Shown piece after piece: positions 4,410 to 32,905 of a DNA stretch of 40,154 nt. The translations under genes and the position numbers were made by a program. Where the stretch lies: assembly GCA_012798115.1 (NCBI GenBank), contig JAAZNV010000007.1, positions 89,586 through 129,739 on the forward strand, read 5' to 3'. Source of the stretch: a candidate division WWE3 bacterium. GTDB taxonomy: Bacteria > Patescibacteriota > WWE3 > UBA101185 > UBA10185. Below the pieces are notes generated by a model. That model was not told where the DNA came from and made no database searches. It worked only from the letters and a program-made list of their open reading frames with translations. Position 1 is the first letter of the stretch; each line of letters opens with the position of its first letter.

Positions 4410-5258
4410 TCACAAAGATTTATACGCCTTTTCAAGAGCCTTAGCCTTGACTCCACTGTCTGAAGCTTCCAAATAAATCCTTGCGTACTCTTCGGAGGAA
4501 TTTTCCATACTTAAGAATTTCTCGAGAATTTTGTTTCTCATTTCGTCCCAAACTGGAATTTTCTCATCATAAATATCCATGTATTCCCGGAGAGATTTTG
4601 TATTATCCACAAAGTTTAATGTTACATCAATGATTTCATCGTGGAGCTCCCTTTCAGCTAGACATCTGGCGTAAAGTTCTATTCCTTTTTGGAAGGAATC
4701 AACTGTGTTTAAAGCTTTATTAAGAACCTTGTACTTGAGTTCATGCATACCCAGAGTTTTGTCGCAGATATCCATATACTCTTCAAAGGAATCTGCCATA
4801 ATAAAAGCTTTTTCTAGAACTTTAACCATAATTTCACTGCAGGGTAAAGTTTCTTCATTGCAAACTTTTATGTATTCATGGAGCAAGCTTTTGTCGTTCA
4901 TAAAACTAAGTGTTTTATTAATGACCTTATTGTAAAGATCTTCTCCATACTCATATGGGTCCTCAACATGGATTTTTATGCATTCCTGGAATGATTTAGC
5001 CCTACTTAAAGTTTTCTTAAGAGCTTCAACTGCAACAGCACTCATATATGGAGCTTCTAACCAGATCTCCATACATTCCTGGAATGATTTAGCCTTCCTA
5101 AGAAGGCTTTGTATTTTCTTAAGAGCTTTTTTTTCGAGTTCACTTTCTTCTGTTCTTTCAAAGAAAATTAGTGTGCACTCTCTGACAGAATTTGTTTTGC
5201 GAAGCAAATAAGTAAGAACCTCCACACTCATTTCATACTTTGTAATTTCACTTCCCAT
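4410..5258 (-). CDS. Helical repeat protein, eight ~31-35 residue repeats
   Basis: No known family recognised. The 282 residues divide into about eight units, each opening with S-(F/L)-x-E-(C/Y)-(M/I)-x-I, for example 'SFQECMEIWLEAPYM', 'SFQECIKIHVEDPYE', 'SFEEYMDICDKTLG' and 'SLREYMDIYDEKIP', and ending in an amphipathic 'ALKK..L..AK'-type helix. This suggests an alpha-solenoid, comparable to TPR or similar scaffolds. There is no signal peptide or membrane segment. Adjacent repeats are also alike at DNA level (ATTCCTGGAATGATTTAGCC appears at about 4982 and 5077), a sign of recent internal duplication. AAGGAGA precedes the ATG and TATAAT lies at 5287-5282, so this gene uses a Shine-Dalgarno start. 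Binding partner unknown. Confidence 0.75.
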   Translation of the reverse strand: MGSEITKYEMSVEVLTYLLRKTNSVRECTLIFFERTEESELEKKALKKIQSLLRKAKSFQECMEIWLEAPYMSAVAVEALKKTLSRAKSFQECIKIHVEDPYEYGEDLYNKVINKTLSFMNDKSLLHEYIKVCNEETLPCSEIMVKVLEKAFIMADSFEEYMDICDKTLGMHELKYKVLNKALNTVDSFQKGIELYARCLAERELHDEIIDVTLNFVDNTKSLREYMDIYDEKIPVWDEMRNKILEKFLSMENSSEEYARIYLEASDSGVKAKALEKAYKSL

Positions 5259-5373
5259 CTTTATCTCCTTTTCTTGTCTATATTATAGGTTGGATTGTAG
5301 CATACTTAGTTGTGAGGTACAAACCTTGTAATTTATCTGTTGGTTTGTTTAGGAAGTGGAGCTTTAGTGTATC

Positions 5374-5450
5374 TGGAGCGACGGACCGGATTTGAACCGG
5401 CGACCTTCTCCTTGGAAGGGAGACGTTCTAGCCAACTGAACTACCGTCGC
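5374..5450 (-). tRNA. tRNA-Gly (UCC)
   Basis: Minus strand: acceptor GCGACGG/CCGTCGC, discriminator T (normal for bacterial tRNA-Gly) and encoded CCA. The anticodon loop CTTCCAA gives anticodon TCC, and the T loop is TTCAAAT. It lies 21 nt downstream of the 87-aa gene on the same strand. In yeast tRNA-Gly(UCC) carries the mcm5U34 made by Elongator and Trm9. Confidence 0.97.
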
Positions 5451-5471
5451 ATGTTTAGAACAATCCTAGCA

Positions 5472-5735
5472 TTAATCTAAATCAGAATCGAATTCTTCTT
5501 CAAAATTAGATTTAGATGTATCCTCTATTCCAAAATCATCAAGTCCATTTTCAAGTTCTGAAACATAATCAATGTCATTAAACTTAGATTTAACTTCTTT
5601 TTTCATCCCCAATGCTACTTTTACATCTTCTGGTAAATCTTCTTCTAACTCTTCTACTTCTTCATGCCCTTGGTTTTTCTTAATAACTTTTTCTTTCTTT
5701 ATTTTATTTTCTTTCTTCTTGTTTTCTTTTTTCAT
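5472..5735 (-). CDS. Small charged hypothetical protein (87 aa)
   Basis: Not recognised. The first ~20 residues are almost only Lys, Asn and Glu ('KKENKKKENKIKKEK'); the remainder is strongly acidic and ends 'FEEEFDSDLD'. A short 'LPEDVKVALGMKKE' in the middle is the only hydrophobic patch. It is probably largely disordered and could bind nucleic acid through the basic tail. It reads into tRNA-Gly 21 nt downstream and may share its transcript. Low complexity makes the coding call less certain, but frame length, a clean ATG and the lack of a competing frame support it. Confidence 0.6.
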   Translation of the reverse strand: MKKENKKKENKIKKEKVIKKNQGHEEVEELEEDLPEDVKVALGMKKEVKSKFNDIDYVSELENGLDDFGIEDTSKSNFEEEFDSDLD

Positions 5736-5798
5736 AATTATTTAATTTAAATTAATCAAACATTTTTAAATAATACATAAGTGTAATACAATACTTTT

Positions 5799-6755
5799 AT
5801 GATAGATTCAAGTACCATTTTTGATGTGATAGTTTTAGGTAGCGGACCTGCTGGTTCAACAGCAGCTCTTTATACGTCAAGGGCATTCTTAAAAACACTT
5901 GTAGTAGCAGGAAATCCTGCTGGCGGCCAATTAACTACAACCACAAAAGTTGAAAACTTTCCTGGGTTTCCTGATGGAATATCAGGATCGGAACTAATTG
6001 CTAACATTAGAACTCAAATAGAAAAGCATGGGGCCTTTTTTATGGAAGAAAATGCAGTTAAGGTTTCTGGATCATTTAAAGATATGTTTAAAGTGGAAAC
6101 AGATTCAGGAAATGTTTATAAAGGAAGAATGCTAATTATTGCAACAGGCGCTTCTGCAAGATGGTTAGGTCTTGAAAGTGAACAAAGACTAATTGGAAAA
6201 GGAGTATCTGCTTGTGCAACATGCGATGGATTTTTCTTTAAGGATAAAGTAATTGCAGTGGTTGGCGGTGGAGATGCAGCTATGGAAGAATCCACATATC
6301 TTTCTAAATTTGCATCAAAAATCTATATTCTTGTTAGAGGAGATAAAGGAAAGCTTAGAGCAAGTAAGTTTATGCAGAAAAAAGCGTTTGAAAACCCAAA
6401 AATAGAATTTTTATTTAACACAGAAGTTAAGGAGGTGTTAGGAAGAGATTTTGTAGAAGGAGTTAAAGTAATAAATAACAAGAATGAGGAAGAAAAAATA
6501 ATTAGTGATGTAAAAGGACTTTTTGTTGCAATTGGCCACACCCCAAACACCAAGTTCTTAGATGGTTTTGTGGAACTTGATGAAAAAGGGTATATTAAAT
6601 CACATGAAGACAACAAAACATCTGTAGAAGGTGTTTACGTTGCAGGAGATGTGCATGATTTTAGGTACAAACAAGCAATTACTGCTTCAGGGTTTGGTTG
6701 TGCAGCAGCAATTGAAGCTGTAAGGTTTTTATCTGATAATAAACCAGTTAGTTAA
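5799..6755 (+). CDS. trxB: Thioredoxin reductase
   Basis: This 318-aa flavoprotein has the standard thioredoxin reductase order: FAD-binding GSGPAGSTAA (residues 14-23), 'GQLTTTTKVENFPGFP', the redox pair CATC (139-142), the NADPH-binding VGGGDAAMEES near 155, and a C-terminal 'GVYVAGDV'. Length matches low-molecular-weight bacterial TrxB. It moves electrons from NADPH to thioredoxin in the cytoplasm. No thioredoxin gene is nearby. TACAAT at 5787-5792 ends exactly 6 nt before the ATG (predicted leaderless). The 3' end overlaps the convergent gene by 8 nt. Confidence 0.95.
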   Translation: MIDSSTIFDVIVLGSGPAGSTAALYTSRAFLKTLVVAGNPAGGQLTTTTKVENFPGFPDGISGSELIANIRTQIEKHGAFFMEENAVKVSGSFKDMFKVETDSGNVYKGRMLIIATGASARWLGLESEQRLIGKGVSACATCDGFFFKDKVIAVVGGGDAAMEESTYLSKFASKIYILVRGDKGKLRASKFMQKKAFENPKIEFLFNTEVKEVLGRDFVEGVKVINNKNEEEKIISDVKGLFVAIGHTPNTKFLDGFVELDEKGYIKSHEDNKTSVEGVYVAGDVHDFRYKQAITASGFGCAAAIEAVRFLSDNKPVS

Positions 6756-7254
6756 ATCCTGGTAGCTTTGGTTGCTCTGTCTCTTCAAGCCTTTTCCCTT
6801 CGTCAATGTCTGGTTGTGTTACTATGGCATGAGGGTTGGTTATGTAATAATACTCGAGTTTTAAATTTTCTTCGTCCAAAAATGGGTAGCCTACTCTTAT
6901 AAAATACTTAGGTTCATCACCAAACACTTTGTTCATTGTTTTATTTACTTTTTCTTTAGGTTCTCCCTTTTGTAATAATTGCTCTTCTACCCATTCCTTT
7001 GTTGCCATGTGAAAATGTCTTTGCTGATTATTTATTTCTTCCTTCCAAATTAGTTTTGATGTTTCAACAACGTCTTTTACTTCTGCAAAAGCAGGAGCAT
7101 CCTCTACTGGTACTATTATTTCTTCTGTGGGGACTCCTTCTACTGTTTTTTTGACTCTATTAGAAATAATTTGACTGATTTTAAACTTTAAATCTGCTAC
7201 TTTTCTTCTTTCCTCCTCTCCTTCCGATGATGTTTCTAAAGTATTTATCCTCAT
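6748..7254 (-). CDS. Hypothetical protein (168 aa)
   Basis: Not recognised. It is soluble, with an N-terminal charged helix ('EGEEERRKVADLKFKISQII') and a C-terminal half with alternating strands ('KYFIRVGYPFLDEENLKLEYYYI'). The segment 'MATKEWVEEQLLQKGEPKEKVNKTM' looks helical. There is no signal peptide, no Cys pair and no obvious catalytic motif. TATAAT ends exactly 6 nt before the ATG on the minus strand, supporting both the start and the reality of the gene. It converges on trxB with an 8-nt overlap, which suggests nothing about function. Confidence 0.7.
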   Translation of the reverse strand: MRINTLETSSEGEEERRKVADLKFKISQIISNRVKKTVEGVPTEEIIVPVEDAPAFAEVKDVVETSKLIWKEEINNQQRHFHMATKEWVEEQLLQKGEPKEKVNKTMNKVFGDEPKYFIRVGYPFLDEENLKLEYYYITNPHAIVTQPDIDEGKRLEETEQPKLPGFN

Positions 7255-7321
7255 GCCTATATTATACTTTATTATGTGATGGTGTGGCTTACTAGTTGTA
7301 TCTTATGTAAAATAAGTACAT

Positions 7322-8458
7322 ATGAAAAGTTTAATGAAAGATGTAAAAAAACTAGACTTTCTTTTTAAAGTAGGGTTAGTGCTTTGTGTCTTTCTCTCAT
7401 CTTCTTATCTTAAGTATAGGGTTTTAGATGAGGCTGGTGGTGATTTTTCTACGTATAAAAAAGCAGTAAGGGACTTTATTGCAGGGAAAAACATTTATAA
7501 AGACACTGTTGAATCTTATGAACCTGGATCTAACGAAGAGCATGGTTATGCTTATTTTCCGACCATGCTTTATATCTATACTCCTTTATATAAGTTAAGT
7601 CTTGCAACACACTACCCTCTTCAAAGAGTATGGAAAGCATCTGTTTTTATAGCTGATATTGGTGTGGGATTAATGATATTGAAGATTTTATGGAAGAAAA
7701 ATTATTGGGCATCTTTAGCTGGAGTGGCTTTTTGGTGGTTGAATCCCTTTTTAATAATTAGAAAATCAGGAGTTTATACTGAACCATTTGGAGTGTTTTT
7801 TATACTTCTTGCTCTTTATTATCTTGAAAAAGATGATGTGAAGTCAGGAATATTTTATGCTATTTCCTTTTCTTTTAAATCTTTTCCCATAATTCTCTTA
7901 CCACTGTTTTTAATAAAATCTAAAAATAAGCTTAAGTTTTTGCTTGGTGCAGCAGCTTTTGCGTTAATTATAAGCATTCCTTTCATGAGAAGCGTACAAG
8001 ATTTTATTTGGTATTTGCAAGGAGCTTTCTTTGTACATGGTGCTAGAGAACCACAAGGAAGGCCACTTCTTTTCTTTATAACTTACTATACATCAGTTCC
8101 CTTGTTTTCTCTTGCTATAGCTAATATTTATAGATATGCTTGCATAATACTTGGTTGGATCTCCACGTCTTATTTAATCCTTAAAAAGAAAATACAAGAC
8201 AAATATATTTTAAGTATGATTTCTTTTATTATTTTTTACCTGTTTACTCCAGTACTAACAAGAACGTATATGCTTTGGTTCATACCAATCTACACGATTG
8301 GAATGTTTAACGTGTTTGAGAGGAAAAAAGAAGGGTTTGCTGGGAAAAACAAGATATATTTCTTCCTTTCTTTAATTGCTTTTTATGTATTTTATGCATG
8401 GTATTTATCGTTATGGTCAAAGGGTTTAAGAATAAAAGGTAATGTAGTTTCTTTATGA
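7322..8458 (+). CDS. GT87-like membrane mannosyltransferase
   Basis: A 378-aa protein with about 9-10 hydrophobic segments. After the first segment comes 'GGDFSTYKKAVRDFIAGKNIY', then 'YAYFPTMLYIYTPLYKL', the pattern of polyprenyl-phosphate-mannose-dependent (GT87, DUF2029) glycosyltransferases with an early Asp in the outer loop. 'SFSFKSFPIILLPLFL' further on also fits that family. The reaction is transfer of a sugar from a lipid carrier on the outer membrane face; acceptor unknown. The stop codon overlaps the next gene's ATG (ATGA), so the two GT-C genes form one operon. TAAAAT lies 8 nt before the ATG. Confidence 0.75.
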   Translation: MKSLMKDVKKLDFLFKVGLVLCVFLSSSYLKYRVLDEAGGDFSTYKKAVRDFIAGKNIYKDTVESYEPGSNEEHGYAYFPTMLYIYTPLYKLSLATHYPLQRVWKASVFIADIGVGLMILKILWKKNYWASLAGVAFWWLNPFLIIRKSGVYTEPFGVFFILLALYYLEKDDVKSGIFYAISFSFKSFPIILLPLFLIKSKNKLKFLLGAAAFALIISIPFMRSVQDFIWYLQGAFFVHGAREPQGRPLLFFITYYTSVPLFSLAIANIYRYACIILGWISTSYLILKKKIQDKYILSMISFIIFYLFTPVLTRTYMLWFIPIYTIGMFNVFERKKEGFAGKNKIYFFLSLIAFYVFYAWYLSLWSKGLRIKGNVVSL

Positions 8459-11307: not shown

Positions 11308-11850
11308 ATGATTTCAAAATATGAAAAATACATTAAATCCTTTTCTTTTGTTTTACTTCTGTTAGTTATGTTTAAATACTCTCTGGCATCCACCTTGCAG
11401 CTTCAAAAAATAGGAGCTCTTGATTTGGGAGGTAAAACATATCCTGAATGGTGGTATACAGGAACAAACCCAGTTTTATATGGTGTTTCAGTTGCAGATT
11501 CAAAAGTTGATATCAAAATAGGAGAAAATTCTTATTCAACTACCTCAAATGATTCTGGTGCGTGGAGCTATCCTACAGTTCTTGATAAGGGAGATTATAA
11601 AATAACTATTTCTCAAGGAGTAGAAACCTTATCTTTTACTCTTCATCTAGGTCAAAACGTTCCAGAAAATGTTGGAAGCACAAATGCAGAATCCACTCAG
11701 TCAGCAACAAACGTTCCAACCACAGGGTTTAATCAGTATGTAGCTTTGTCCTTTGGCTTTGGTGTAATACTTCTTGCAACTTATTTTTATTTTTCTACGG
11801 ATTCAAAGAAAAAATCAGTATTTGAGAATAGAATGATAAAAGAAGATTAG
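11308..11850 (+). CDS. Secreted Ig-like surface protein with VPTTG sorting-type tail
   Basis: 180 aa. Signal peptide at 10-28 ('SFSFVLLLLVMFKYSLAS'), then a beta-rich domain (about 50-115; 'GTNPVLYGVSVADSKVDIKI' and 'NDSGAWSYPT' resemble bacterial Ig-like/carboxypeptidase-regulatory folds). A Ser/Thr/Asn-rich linker leads to VPTTG (136-140), a hydrophobic helix (144-162) and KKK (167-169). This is the arrangement of a sortase substrate, with VPTTG in place of LPXTG; the charged tail is a little longer than usual. A sortase domain is encoded at 30301-31569 and could be its partner (inference). Alternatively the tail is a plain membrane anchor. Confidence 0.75.
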   Translation: MISKYEKYIKSFSFVLLLLVMFKYSLASTLQLQKIGALDLGGKTYPEWWYTGTNPVLYGVSVADSKVDIKIGENSYSTTSNDSGAWSYPTVLDKGDYKITISQGVETLSFTLHLGQNVPENVGSTNAESTQSATNVPTTGFNQYVALSFGFGVILLATYFYFSTDSKKKSVFENRMIKED

Positions 11851-29505: not shown

Positions 29506-30186
29506 TTATTCTCTTGGGGTTGTGCCATATATTATCACTTTTGTTCCTGGGTTTTCTTCTGTTGCTGTGATACTACTTATGTTTTGAGGAAGAATAGGAT
29601 TTGCCCAATAGAACAGTTTTTCTGCATCCTCAATTCTCATATTCACACAGCCATGACTCATTGGGTGTCCAAAGTTATCATGCCAGTAAGCACCGTGTAT
29701 GCCGTAATCCTTATAGAAAAACATTGTATATGGAACGTTTGGAAGGTAATAGTAAGTTCCAAGATCCTTTGATCCTCCAGTCATTAATGTATATTTAAGT
29801 TTTGACCAAACTTTAAACTCTCCTGTTGGTGTTTGACTCCACTTTCCTGTGGAGACATCGAAACTCATTTTTTTATCATTACCTTCATACGCAAAAAGTT
29901 TTTGAGAACTTAAATCTACTTCAATTCTTTTATCTTTTTTAGATTTAGATCCTAAAACATTTGATTCTATAGAAGTATCTAGATTTGCAGAGTTATCCTC
30001 ATAGCTTAGAATTACTGTTCTTTCTTCTGGTACTGTGTATTTTTTACCATTAAATACAGCTGTTTTCTTTGTATCATCATAAGCTCCATTATTTGGTTTA
30101 GAAGAAATTTTAAGAATGGCAAAGAGTGTTAAAGTTGCAATTAAAGGAACAATGTACAAAAAGTTGAAAGTCTTTAACCTTTTCAT
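29506..30186 (-). CDS. L,D-transpeptidase (YkuD domain), membrane-anchored
   Basis: I place the start at 30186 rather than at the track's 30237, because 'MKRLKTFNFLYIVPLIATLTLFAIL' then forms a clean signal anchor and TATTAT sits about 10 nt upstream. The C-terminal YkuD domain has 'IEVDLSSQKLFAYEGN', 'TGKWSQTPTGEFKVW' and the catalytic block 'HGAYWHDNFGHPMSHGCVNMR' (His and nucleophile Cys). It makes 3-3 cross-links in peptidoglycan or attaches proteins to it, outside the membrane. Divergent from the deacetylase-sortase operon, which also acts on the envelope. Confidence 0.92.
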   Translation of the reverse strand: MKRLKTFNFLYIVPLIATLTLFAILKISSKPNNGAYDDTKKTAVFNGKKYTVPEERTVILSYEDNSANLDTSIESNVLGSKSKKDKRIEVDLSSQKLFAYEGNDKKMSFDVSTGKWSQTPTGEFKVWSKLKYTLMTGGSKDLGTYYYLPNVPYTMFFYKDYGIHGAYWHDNFGHPMSHGCVNMRIEDAEKLFYWANPILPQNISSITATEENPGTKVIIYGTTPRE

Positions 30187-30247
30187 ATATGAGAAAATAA
30201 TACCACTTTGTTTTGCATGTGGCATAAGTTTATGCATCTACAATTGG

Positions 30248-30276: not shown

Positions 30277-30300
30277 ACCAGCGAATAAAAAGGAGAGAAA

Positions 30301-31569
30301 ATGCTTAAGCTTAAGAAAGAGTTATTTCTGTTGCTTTTAATTCTTTTAACTGGCTGTTCCAGCTTAAAGGTCAAAGCTTCAGAATTAAGTGGTACTAGTA
30401 CCTTTAAAACTAATATAAAAGAGAACAACAACGGGAAAACAGGCTATGTTACATTTTGGTTTGATGATGGCTATAAATCTACATTTGATAATGCTTTTCC
30501 TTTGCTTAAAGAGCAAGGGTGGCCTGGTGTAGTAGCAGTAGTGAGTAGTATTGATGATGTAAGTTCAAATTTCTCAGACGTGGATGAGCCTATGAGCTTA
30601 GATGATATTAAGATCTTAAATGATAACGGATGGGAGATTTCTAGTCATTCTAGCTATCACTTAAGGCCAAGTGAAATAACAAATCCAGAAGTTGCAGAAG
30701 AAGAAGTTTTAAATTCTAAGAAAGCTCTAGAGCTATTGGGCTTTGAGATTGAAACTTATACTCTACCCTATGGAGAAAGCGGTCTTGATTTTTATCAATC
30801 ATTAGTGATGAATAATTATCATAAGTGGAGGACTTTAAGTGAAGGAGTAAACACTGTTCCTTCAGGAAGAAAGCTATACTCCTACTCTTTTCCAAAAGAT
30901 ATAAATTGGGAAAATATTGATAAGATTATAGACCAAACTAAGGAAATGGGAGGATGGCTAATAATAACTTTGCATGCAACTACAGACAATCCAACATCAT
31001 CATGGAGTCATACAACATCACAATTAGAAGAATTAATCAAAGTAGTGGATGAATCTGGATTGAGAGTAATTACCCCAAATCAAATGGAAGATAAGCTGTT
31101 GATTCCATCGGAATTTAACGAAAGTTTGGTTATGCTAAAGATTAATGACATAGATGTTAGTTCCCCATTGTTGTTAGTAGAACAAAGCCTTAAATCTGAT
31201 TCAAAAGATTGGGGGGATTTCTCAAGTCATCTACTAGGTCCCATGTGGCTTCCCGTAAGAGCAGTTGGTGAAAAGGGTTTGACATTGATTGTTGGTCATA
31301 GACAATGGGGCCCAGAGCCAAAGGTTTTTGCAAATCTGGACAAACTTCAAATTGGTAATGAGGTGGTAATAAGTGTGAATAATGAAGATAAGTATGTTTT
31401 TACTGTATCTAGCGCTCAAGTAATTAATCCTGAGGATTTATGGAGCTTTTATGGTAGTAAAGACGAAGAATGTATTAAGAGCAACAAGTCTTGTCTTAGT
31501 TTAATTACTTGTACACCTTATGGCACTACCAAACAACGTTTAATTGTAACAGCAACCTTGAATGAGTAA
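30301..31569 (+). CDS. Polysaccharide deacetylase (NodB)-sortase fusion lipoprotein
   Basis: 422 aa. Lipoprotein signal with lipobox LTGC (16-19). Residues about 47-260 form a NodB/CE4 deacetylase: FDDG (54-57), metal ligands in HSSYH (H116, H120), and 'TLPYGESG'. Residues about 275-422 read as a sortase: 'WLPVRAVGEKGLTLIVGHRQWG' (His333), 'VFANLDKLQIGNEVVISV', 'YVFTVSSAQVINPEDLW' and 'LSLITCTPYG..KQRLIV' (Cys404, Arg413), so the His-Cys-Arg triad is complete. I know of no standard family with this fusion. A Shine-Dalgarno site precedes it; a PgaC-like synthase follows 22 nt downstream. Predicted: N-deacetylation of a glycan at the cell surface, coupled to covalent attachment of a protein or glycan. 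Confidence 0.88.
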   Translation: MLKLKKELFLLLLILLTGCSSLKVKASELSGTSTFKTNIKENNNGKTGYVTFWFDDGYKSTFDNAFPLLKEQGWPGVVAVVSSIDDVSSNFSDVDEPMSLDDIKILNDNGWEISSHSSYHLRPSEITNPEVAEEEVLNSKKALELLGFEIETYTLPYGESGLDFYQSLVMNNYHKWRTLSEGVNTVPSGRKLYSYSFPKDINWENIDKIIDQTKEMGGWLIITLHATTDNPTSSWSHTTSQLEELIKVVDESGLRVITPNQMEDKLLIPSEFNESLVMLKINDIDVSSPLLLVEQSLKSDSKDWGDFSSHLLGPMWLPVRAVGEKGLTLIVGHRQWGPEPKVFANLDKLQIGNEVVISVNNEDKYVFTVSSAQVINPEDLWSFYGSKDEECIKSNKSCLSLITCTPYGTTKQRLIVTATLNE

Positions 31570-31591
31570 CAATGATAAGGAGATGAAGTGA

Positions 31592-32665
31592 ATGAGAAAT
31601 CATCTAAATGTTGCAGTGTTGATACCTGCTCATAATGAGCAGAAGTGTATTGAAGCTTGCCTGAAATCTGTGTTTGATCAAACTTATAGACCAGTACAGA
31701 TCATTGTGGTAAATGATGCTTCTACTGATGATACGCATGGTGTTGTTACATCATTAACACAAGCATATCCGCATTTGTGCCTGGTAGATAATAAATCAGG
31801 CCATCCGCTTTTTAGGAGTGGTGCATTAAATATGGGTCTATGCAATATTGATCCGAGTGTTGATATTGTTATGGCTTTAGATGCAGATTCCTTCATATCA
31901 AATGACTGCATTGAACAAGTAGTAAAATCCTTTATTAGTGATGATAAACTTGGAGGTGTTTGTTCAATAGCAGGGTTAATAGAACCTGATCTTAGAAGCC
32001 TAAAGGGAGTTAAGAAGGTTATTAGTTGGTTGCTATGGGAGATTCAAAAGATTGAATATGGAGGTTTTGATGCTGAAAGGACAGCAACTTATGATAATGT
32101 GTTAATACTTCATGGATTATGTAGTGCCTTTAGAATCGAAGCAATAAATAACACGGGTGGCTACTCCAATGATCAGCTTCTAGAGGATTATGATCTCACC
32201 TTAAAGATCAAAGAGTTAGGATGGAAAGCTAAGTTTAATCCTAAAATTCATGCTTTCACTAAACCACCATTAACGTTTAAAGGTCTTTTGAAACAACGAT
32301 TTAGATGGATGAGAGGTGGTGTTGATATTCTTGTGAAGCATGGGGTAAATAAGTATACATGGTCGGATTTTTTCAATCATGTAGTATTTATAGCACTGTT
32401 GGTAGGAGTAATCCTTATAGTTGCTCCAACAAGTAGTAAAGGTACCTGGGAGTTTACTCTTAACTTTCATCCAATTGCAATCGCCCTAGCAGCAGTTGGG
32501 TATTTAACGTCGATCTATAAATTGAAGTTTGTCAGGGATATTAAATTTGCTGATGTTTTAATAAGGCTATTAATAATCCCTGAGCTTCTTATGTCTATCA
32601 TTTACTTTGCTTTACAGATAAGTGCTTATGTTGCAAGCATTGCAAAGATAAAGAAAACGTGGTAG
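31592..32665 (+). CDS. GT2 polysaccharide synthase (PgaC/IcaA-like)
   Basis: 357 aa. Family 2 glycosyltransferase domain at the N-terminus: 'AVLIPAHNEQKCIEACLKSV', 'VVNDASTDDT', 'ALDADSF' (DxD), 'LLEDYDLTLKIKELGW' (ED) and 'LKQRFRWMRGG' (QxxRW), which marks processive synthases of the cellulose/chitin/poly-GlcNAc type. Three or four membrane helices follow after 260. The N-terminal helices of classical PgaC are missing. With the adjacent deacetylase it resembles a compressed poly-N-acetylglucosamine (pga/ica) locus. GGAG lies 9 nt before the ATG. The substrate assignment is inference. Confidence 0.85.
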   Translation: MRNHLNVAVLIPAHNEQKCIEACLKSVFDQTYRPVQIIVVNDASTDDTHGVVTSLTQAYPHLCLVDNKSGHPLFRSGALNMGLCNIDPSVDIVMALDADSFISNDCIEQVVKSFISDDKLGGVCSIAGLIEPDLRSLKGVKKVISWLLWEIQKIEYGGFDAERTATYDNVLILHGLCSAFRIEAINNTGGYSNDQLLEDYDLTLKIKELGWKAKFNPKIHAFTKPPLTFKGLLKQRFRWMRGGVDILVKHGVNKYTWSDFFNHVVFIALLVGVILIVAPTSSKGTWEFTLNFHPIAIALAAVGYLTSIYKLKFVRDIKFADVLIRLLIIPELLMSIIYFALQISAYVASIAKIKKTW

Positions 32666-32697
32666 ACAAGTGTTAGAAAAAAAAGAAAGAAGGAGAA

Positions 32698-32859
32698 ATG
32701 TACAAGAATGTGATTACTACTGGAGGGGGATGGACAGGAGCAGTAATGCTTAGTTTTCTGGCTAAGCAATATGTTCTTGGAGTTTTATTAATCTTGCTTG
32801 GAATTATAGTTGTGGGATTTATAAAACTTCGAAAGGGAGAAAAGTCTCTCAAAAACTAA
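32698..32859 (+). CDS. Small membrane protein (53 aa) in the synthase operon
   Basis: Not in the ORF track. AAGGAG lies 3-4 nt before the ATG. The product starts 'MYKNVITTGGGWTGAVM', has one long hydrophobic helix (about 25-44, 'YVLGVLLILLGIIVVGFIKL') and ends with a basic tail. It lies 32 nt after the GT2 synthase and is followed directly by a strong terminator, so it is the third gene of the operon. By position it could be a synthase partner like PgaD/IcaD, but those are larger with two helices; no sequence similarity can be claimed. Confidence 0.7.
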   Translation: MYKNVITTGGGWTGAVMLSFLAKQYVLGVLLILLGIIVVGFIKLRKGEKSLKN

Positions 32860-32864
32860 TTGCA

Positions 32865-32905
32865 AACCACCTTAAGGGTATTAACCTAAGAGGTGGTTCT
32901 TTTTT
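32865..32905 (+). terminator. Terminator of the deacetylase-sortase/GT2 operon
   Basis: AACCACCT/AGGTGGTT stem with inner GGT/ACC, followed by CTTTTTT. It begins 5 nt after the 53-aa gene. Confidence 0.9.

Follow-up and report, generated by a model that had tools for sequence, protein, structure and literature searches.

Sortases join proteins to peptidoglycan or to one another. The locus described here raises the question of what such an enzyme might do when it is part of the same polypeptide as a polysaccharide deacetylase. The locus lies in a window (the whole stretch of DNA that was analysed, 40,154 nucleotides) from a candidate division WWE3 bacterium. The gene is one frame with an ATG start and without an internal stop, preceded by the Shine-Dalgarno sequence AAGGAG at 30290-30295, and it comprises the following features:

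30301..31569, plus strand: fused lipoprotein of a CE4/NodB deacetylase and a sortase, 422 aa
30346..30357, plus strand: lipobox LTGC, residues 16-19, seen in the sequence, with predicted lipidation of Cys19
30430..31086, plus strand: CE4/NodB domain, residues 44-262 (PF01522, CE4 folds, homologue in genome G205 at 37%)
31135..31560, plus strand: sortase domain, residues 279-420 (PF04203, Foldseek, relative in genome UBA5749)

The N-terminal domain carries the Asp-Asp and His-x3-His motifs of CE4/NodB enzymes (FDDG at residues 54-57 and HSSYH at 116-120), together with LPYG (155-158) and LHAT (224-227), and residues 44-164 match the Pfam profile Polysacc_deac_1 (PF01522) above its cut-off (8.8e-12; 45.5 bits versus 23.1). 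Deacetylase activity is predicted from these intact catalytic motifs; CE4 pseudoenzymes do exist, and one of them, BA3943, is among the structural matches of this half. The C-terminal domain covers positions 1-124 of the 125 in the Pfam Sortase profile (PF04203; 2e-20; 73.3 bits versus a cut-off of 26.6) and has the catalytic residues His333, Cys404 and Arg413. It is predicted to cut and transfer LPxTG-type signals. The first-pass annotation had read both domains in one open reading frame, with FDDG and HSSYH where they are found here and the three sortase residues correctly numbered, and its reading is borne out by two Pfam scores that are far above chance. On sequence evidence, the fusion is confirmed as a genuine single protein with complete CE4 and sortase catalytic sites.

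The protein had also been called a lipoprotein, in agreement with the lipobox that ends at Cys19. Lgt is encoded in the same genome (3e-59), so that lipidation of the fusion protein is feasible. A membrane helix is the usual, but not universal, anchor of a sortase. No trace of such a helix was found near the sortase domain of the fusion, which has its lipobox instead, as does the sortase of UBA5749. The domain resembles the class C, E and F sortases in its His-Cys-Arg site, in a fold that is nearest to Sortase E by Foldseek and in a best NCBIfam match to class C. It differs from them in scoring below the cut-off of every named class (54 bits versus 160 for C, 40 versus 160 for E and 39 versus 166 for F), in having a lipobox rather than an N-terminal membrane helix, and in its position behind a deacetylase.

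An AlphaFold2 model built from a 12-row alignment, consisting of the window protein and proteins of related loci, reached a pLDDT of 66.9 and a pTM of 0.55, with low confidence in part of the sortase domain; the fusion sequence alone gave a pLDDT of 38.7. With the 12-row model, the leading Foldseek matches were sortases (Thermobifida fusca Sortase E, E 4.1e-9, TMt 0.61), in line with the annotated sortase and its profile match, and CE4 esterases were also among its matches. Neither outcome that the first-pass annotation had named as refuting (no sortase hit for residues 275-422, or a predicted fold other than the sortase beta-barrel) was thus observed. VIA-align placed residues 46-266 with CE4 deacetylases at Z about 16 (SpPgdA, Z 16.4, rmsd 2.8, 180 aligned). 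Since the VIA-align rows span residues 45-272 only, the sortase part is supported by Foldseek and by sequence. The CE4 fold is shared with the streptococcal and bacillar peptidoglycan deacetylases (PgdA, PdaC; Z about 16). The window domain differs from these in being fused to a sortase and encoded in an operon with a GT2 synthase, and its substrate is probably an exported glycan. The top VIA-align match of the NodB half (model residues 46-266) was a viral protein, the turret of Haloferax tailed virus 1 (8qpg, Z 17.9), which, judging from this model comparison, seems to have a CE4-like fold.

Two genes and a terminator, overlooked in the first-pass annotation, follow the fusion gene:

31592..32665, plus strand: processive GT2 polysaccharide synthase, PgaC/IcaA-like, 357 aa (TIGR03937, motifs, GT2 of G205 at 43%)
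32698..32859, plus strand: unannotated mini-peptide, 53 aa, MYKNVITTGGGWTGAVMLSFLAKQYVLGVLLILLGIIVVGFIKLRKGEKSLKN (AAGGAG before the ATG, homologue in G205)
32865..32905, plus strand: intrinsic terminator, with a hairpin of -20.4 kcal/mol (z -3.37) and then CTTTTTT; a simple terminator scan did not list it

GT2 starts 22 bp after the fusion gene and has its own Shine-Dalgarno sequence, and the mini-peptide gene starts 32 bp after GT2. The three genes are read as one operon (30301-32859), which probably ends at 32865-32905, because the hairpin and T-run are found there. The motifs of GT2 (DAD at 97, LEDYD at 197, QRFRW at 235) are those of processive synthases, with hydrophobic segments confined to the C-terminal third. 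Its nearest described family is the poly-GlcNAc synthase (PgaC/IcaA, TIGR03937), at 138 bits and under the equivalog cut-off of 422, and the XrtG-associated glycosyltransferase, to which its likeness is only distant, is the other of its nearest models (100 bits versus 364). The NodB half does not reach the PgaB/IcaB equivalogs either (30 bits against 322 for TIGR03938, 21 against 248 for TIGR03933). Because both proteins score under the curated PgaC and PgaB cut-offs, the glycan may not be poly-GlcNAc. The operon resembles the PNAG/PIA systems (PgaBCD, IcaADBC) in that its GT2 is nearest to TIGR03937 and its extracellular NodB domain is nearest to the PgaB, HfsH and IcaB models. It differs in falling under these curated cut-offs, in lacking the PgaB hydrolase domain and a two-helix PgaD/IcaD, and in adding a sortase and a sorting-signal peptide.

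The third gene encodes a membrane peptide that is hardly more than a sorting signal. It has a short N-terminus (MYKN), a degenerate sorting motif, (V)ITTGGG, in which Ile replaces Pro, and then a membrane helix and a basic tail. It is homologous to the LPxTG peptides of sister operons; its alignment with the G205 mini-peptide scored 60, versus 26 +/- 5 for shuffles (0 of 2000 as high). No family for the tested mini-peptides was found in NCBIfam and Pfam. The first-pass annotation had instead named VPTTG peptides as test substrates, and one protein with this signal is encoded 18 kb away:

11308..11850, plus strand: possible conventional sortase substrate, 180 aa, with a signal peptide, Ig-like domain, VPTTG, membrane helix and KKK (read from its sequence; a candidate for this sortase)

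The nearest candidate is the signal-only peptide of the operon itself, with its degenerate VITTG, which displaces the VPTTG protein from first place.

Sister operons in other genomes show how the fusion may be composed. In G205, two neighbouring genes give the best matches to the NodB half (37%) and to GT2 (43%), and the operon order is lipo-NodB, GT2 and a 64-aa peptide with LPVTGGG. Sortase is absent from this operon, and one sits on another contig. For the sortase half, the top match comes from Ca. Dojkabacteria UBA5749 (37% over 161 aa, 1e-26). It is a lipoprotein sortase, and after a gap of 4 bp come a GT2 (35% to the window GT2) and then a 65-aa peptide with LPPTGGG. No NodB was found in UBA5749 with the window query, although gaps in this genome, or NodB families beyond the reach of that query, may account for this. 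Hence, one position in the operon is filled by a lipo-NodB in G205, by a lipo-sortase in UBA5749 and by the two as a single protein in the window, and the case of UBA5749 indicates that the set can lack deacetylation. These operons also bear on whether the fusion might be an assembly artefact or a decaying gene, as its occurrence in one genome only could suggest. Against this, its catalytic sites are intact, its frame is uninterrupted and its operon has ribosome sites and a terminator, and each half is found at the same operon position elsewhere (lipo-NodB in G205, lipo-sortase in UBA5749). An artefact or decaying gene is therefore extremely improbable.

The fusion had been considered unusual, and our survey agrees. 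No second NodB-sortase fusion was found in 379 genomes sampled across the phylum, in 27 from its own family or in 237 from a different class. Pattern scans with the fusion protein as sole query matched nothing in 84,980 species. Relatives of the sortase or NodB parts were not found in viral contigs. We had considered that long CPR sortases might commonly be fusions, and rejected this, since their extra sequence consists of low-complexity tails and a membrane helix only. One CPR sortase (L105 4956-6149) has a thrombospondin type 3-like calcium-binding stretch N-terminal to the catalytic domain, and a protein with an APRTG signal adjoins it. The genome of the window has 5 sortases, namely the fusion and four others, and the one NodB detected in it is the fusion. 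No close GT2 or NodB relatives were found in the three other genomes of the genus, so that either this lineage acquired the operon or its sisters lost it.

The same parts also occur as separate neighbours. Among 64 NodB genes whose neighbourhoods were examined, 7 lay no more than two genes away from a separate sortase gene, where chance would give ~0.6 (from an estimate of ~2 sortases per genome and ~900 genes). These seven loci come from six families (G327; G125; G139; G310 and G344; G069; G137), and each of the seven also contains a PgaC-like GT2 and a 52-67-aa peptide, in which an LPxTG-like motif is followed by a membrane helix and a basic tail. The motifs are LPNTA in G327, LPATT in G125 and G139, LPATG in G310 and G137, LPNTG in G344 and LPATA in G069. 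Across 84 NodB loci, which are not fully independent and were picked by similarity to window or G125 proteins, the mini-peptide was near 7 of the 8 with a neighbouring sortase versus 3 of the 76 without (P=2e-7). The eighth sortase-linked locus is the window, whose variant peptide escapes the strict pattern; in about 1.3 Mb of sequence from elsewhere, this pattern hit once by chance. When a profile of eleven peptides was run on the 379 genomes, it returned 12 stand-alone copies (nine seeds and three new ones), every one of them beside a PgaC-like GT2, and its other matches were mostly C-terminal signals of larger proteins. The tightest link is that of GT2 and peptide; sortase and NodB accompany the pair often, though not always.

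The seven loci favour one part of the deacetylase-sortase coupling suggested by the first-pass annotation, namely a functional link between the two enzymes beside a PgaC-like synthase. The other part, glycan amines as the acceptor, is not supported in the form in which it was put, and UBA5749 has sortase, GT2 and peptide without a detected NodB. The possibility that cassette NodB proteins are themselves sortase substrates was rejected for those examined, which have carbohydrate-binding-like C-terminal domains and no sorting signal. G069 has a second cassette (L361, G069:C22, about 4959-7965) of GT2, mini-peptide, sortase and a 260-aa secreted protein, with no NodB gene in the stretch examined. 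In Bacterium BMS3Abin01, whose record names no CPR group, a mini LPVTG peptide lies between GT2 and NodB (L213, 6092-6250), so that the mini-peptide may extend beyond CPR. NodB-GT2 fusion proteins of about 1140 aa were seen in Alphaproteobacteria and Terriglobia (L206, L210, L214, L227).

Our tentative proposal is that the operon at 30301-32859 makes a surface polysaccharide and modifies it by means of the sortase, which would pass the mini-peptide to an amine, likeliest on the deacetylated glycan; we put its chance of being right somewhat short of even. GT2 would extrude a GlcNAc-containing chain, and the lipid-anchored NodB domain would expose free glucosamine amines on the emerging chain at the outer face. 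The sortase domain would cut the mini-peptide between Thr and Gly, and the acyl group would be passed to an amine, most likely of the deacetylated glycan. The fusion would thus set the amine-making enzyme next to the would-be amine-using enzyme. The transferred short peptide might serve as a cap or a tag, or its transfer might release a brake on the synthase, and larger sortase substrates might share the same acceptor.

A glycan amine is an attractive acceptor, because the fused partner would make it and because there are documented cases of a similar logic. In Porphyromonas, the putative CE4 enzyme VimE belongs to the pathway of a linking sugar, and the sortase-like PorU joins proteins to that sugar (PMC7468200). 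Exosortase is associated with genes for PF01522 polysaccharide deacetylases and glycosyltransferases (PMC1569441). Several observations count against the proposed mechanism: UBA5749 has no detected NodB, the G205 operon has no sortase, the window peptide has Ile for Pro, and the four other sortases of the genome could serve the mini-peptide. A wider claim would be that synthase, deacetylase, sortase and signal-only LPxTG peptide form a new kind of envelope system that acts as one unit and joins the peptide, perhaps also protein, to polysaccharide amines, with the window as its most compact form. This wider claim is rather unlikely.

The main rival explanation builds on PgaD and IcaD, the small membrane proteins that partner such synthases: the mini-peptide would be a small structural subunit of the synthase, similar to a reduced PgaD/IcaD. 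The sortase would then cut or hold it and so switch polymerisation or chain release, and a glycan amine would not be the acceptor. This would fit the 12 of 12 stand-alone peptides beside GT2, even where NodB or sortase is not near, as well as the absence of a detected NodB in UBA5749. However, PgaD and IcaD have two helices and the mini-peptide has one. Moreover, the sorting motif is kept in all copies except that of the window and one or two others, which is sensible only if a sortase acts on the peptide. We consider the subunit explanation rather unlikely.

Alternatively, the sortase domain might attach conventional surface proteins to peptidoglycan, for example the VPTTG protein at 11308-11850, and the fusion might merely place it near a cell-wall or capsule deacetylase without chemical coupling. 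Sorting signals in this genome were sought by pattern and around sortases only, and substrates with usual signals were found: besides the VPTTG protein, a 202-aa LPKTG protein is encoded immediately upstream of another sortase (L193 7693-8298; L001, G000 contig C6), an apparent dedicated enzyme-substrate pair. Next door to the fusion gene, and divergent from it, lies a gene for an L,D-transpeptidase (YkuD) with an N-terminal membrane helix (window 29506-30237, minus strand), which also fits ordinary anchoring. Yet, separate sortase genes recur with GT2, NodB and mini-peptide in six families, which points to a dedicated role, and four other sortases are on hand for general anchoring. Ordinary anchoring is, in our judgement, unlikely.

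The protein anchoring to an exopolysaccharide advanced by the first-pass annotation stands as a hypothesis. In its specific form, the sortase of the fusion would join surface proteins to amines of the deacetylated exopolysaccharide. The co-occurrence of NodB, sortase, GT2 and peptide is consistent with this, as are the two precedents (PMC7468200, PMC1569441). In the cassettes examined, however, there is no full-length substrate protein besides the mini-peptide, and substrates would need to be encoded elsewhere, which makes such a role improbable. In place of protein anchoring alone, the wider reading is of a glycan-synthase cassette that has a sortase and a bare-signal peptide of its own.

Two known systems come close to such a cassette. 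The PEP-CTERM/exosortase system (EpsH) likewise has a C-terminal signal and a sorting enzyme tied to polysaccharide genes that include PF01522 deacetylases (PMC1569441), whereas the window enzyme is a true sortase and its signal is LPxTG-like and a stand-alone peptide. Attachment of T9SS cargo to A-LPS (PorU, VimE/VimA) shares the sortase-like joining of proteins to the amine of a linking sugar, in the making of which a putative CE4 deacetylase takes part (PMC7468200). It differs in that PorU is a gingipain-type protease, the surface is Gram-negative and the linker carries serine or glycine. Beyond the precedents in these two papers, we found no description of the cassette, or of natural sortase use of aminosugars, in the open-access papers searched.

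The fusion in this tiny-genome bacterium, together with the same parts as separate neighbours in distant relatives, suggests a previously undescribed coupling of surface-sugar synthesis to sortase chemistry. To our knowledge, the surfaces of CPR bacteria are largely unstudied. If the proposed reading is true, exported glycans would come within the range of sortase chemistry, and there would be a handle on how CPR bacteria build their envelope. The cassette is a simple, testable set of parts, and it may provide an enzymatic route to peptide-glycan conjugates.
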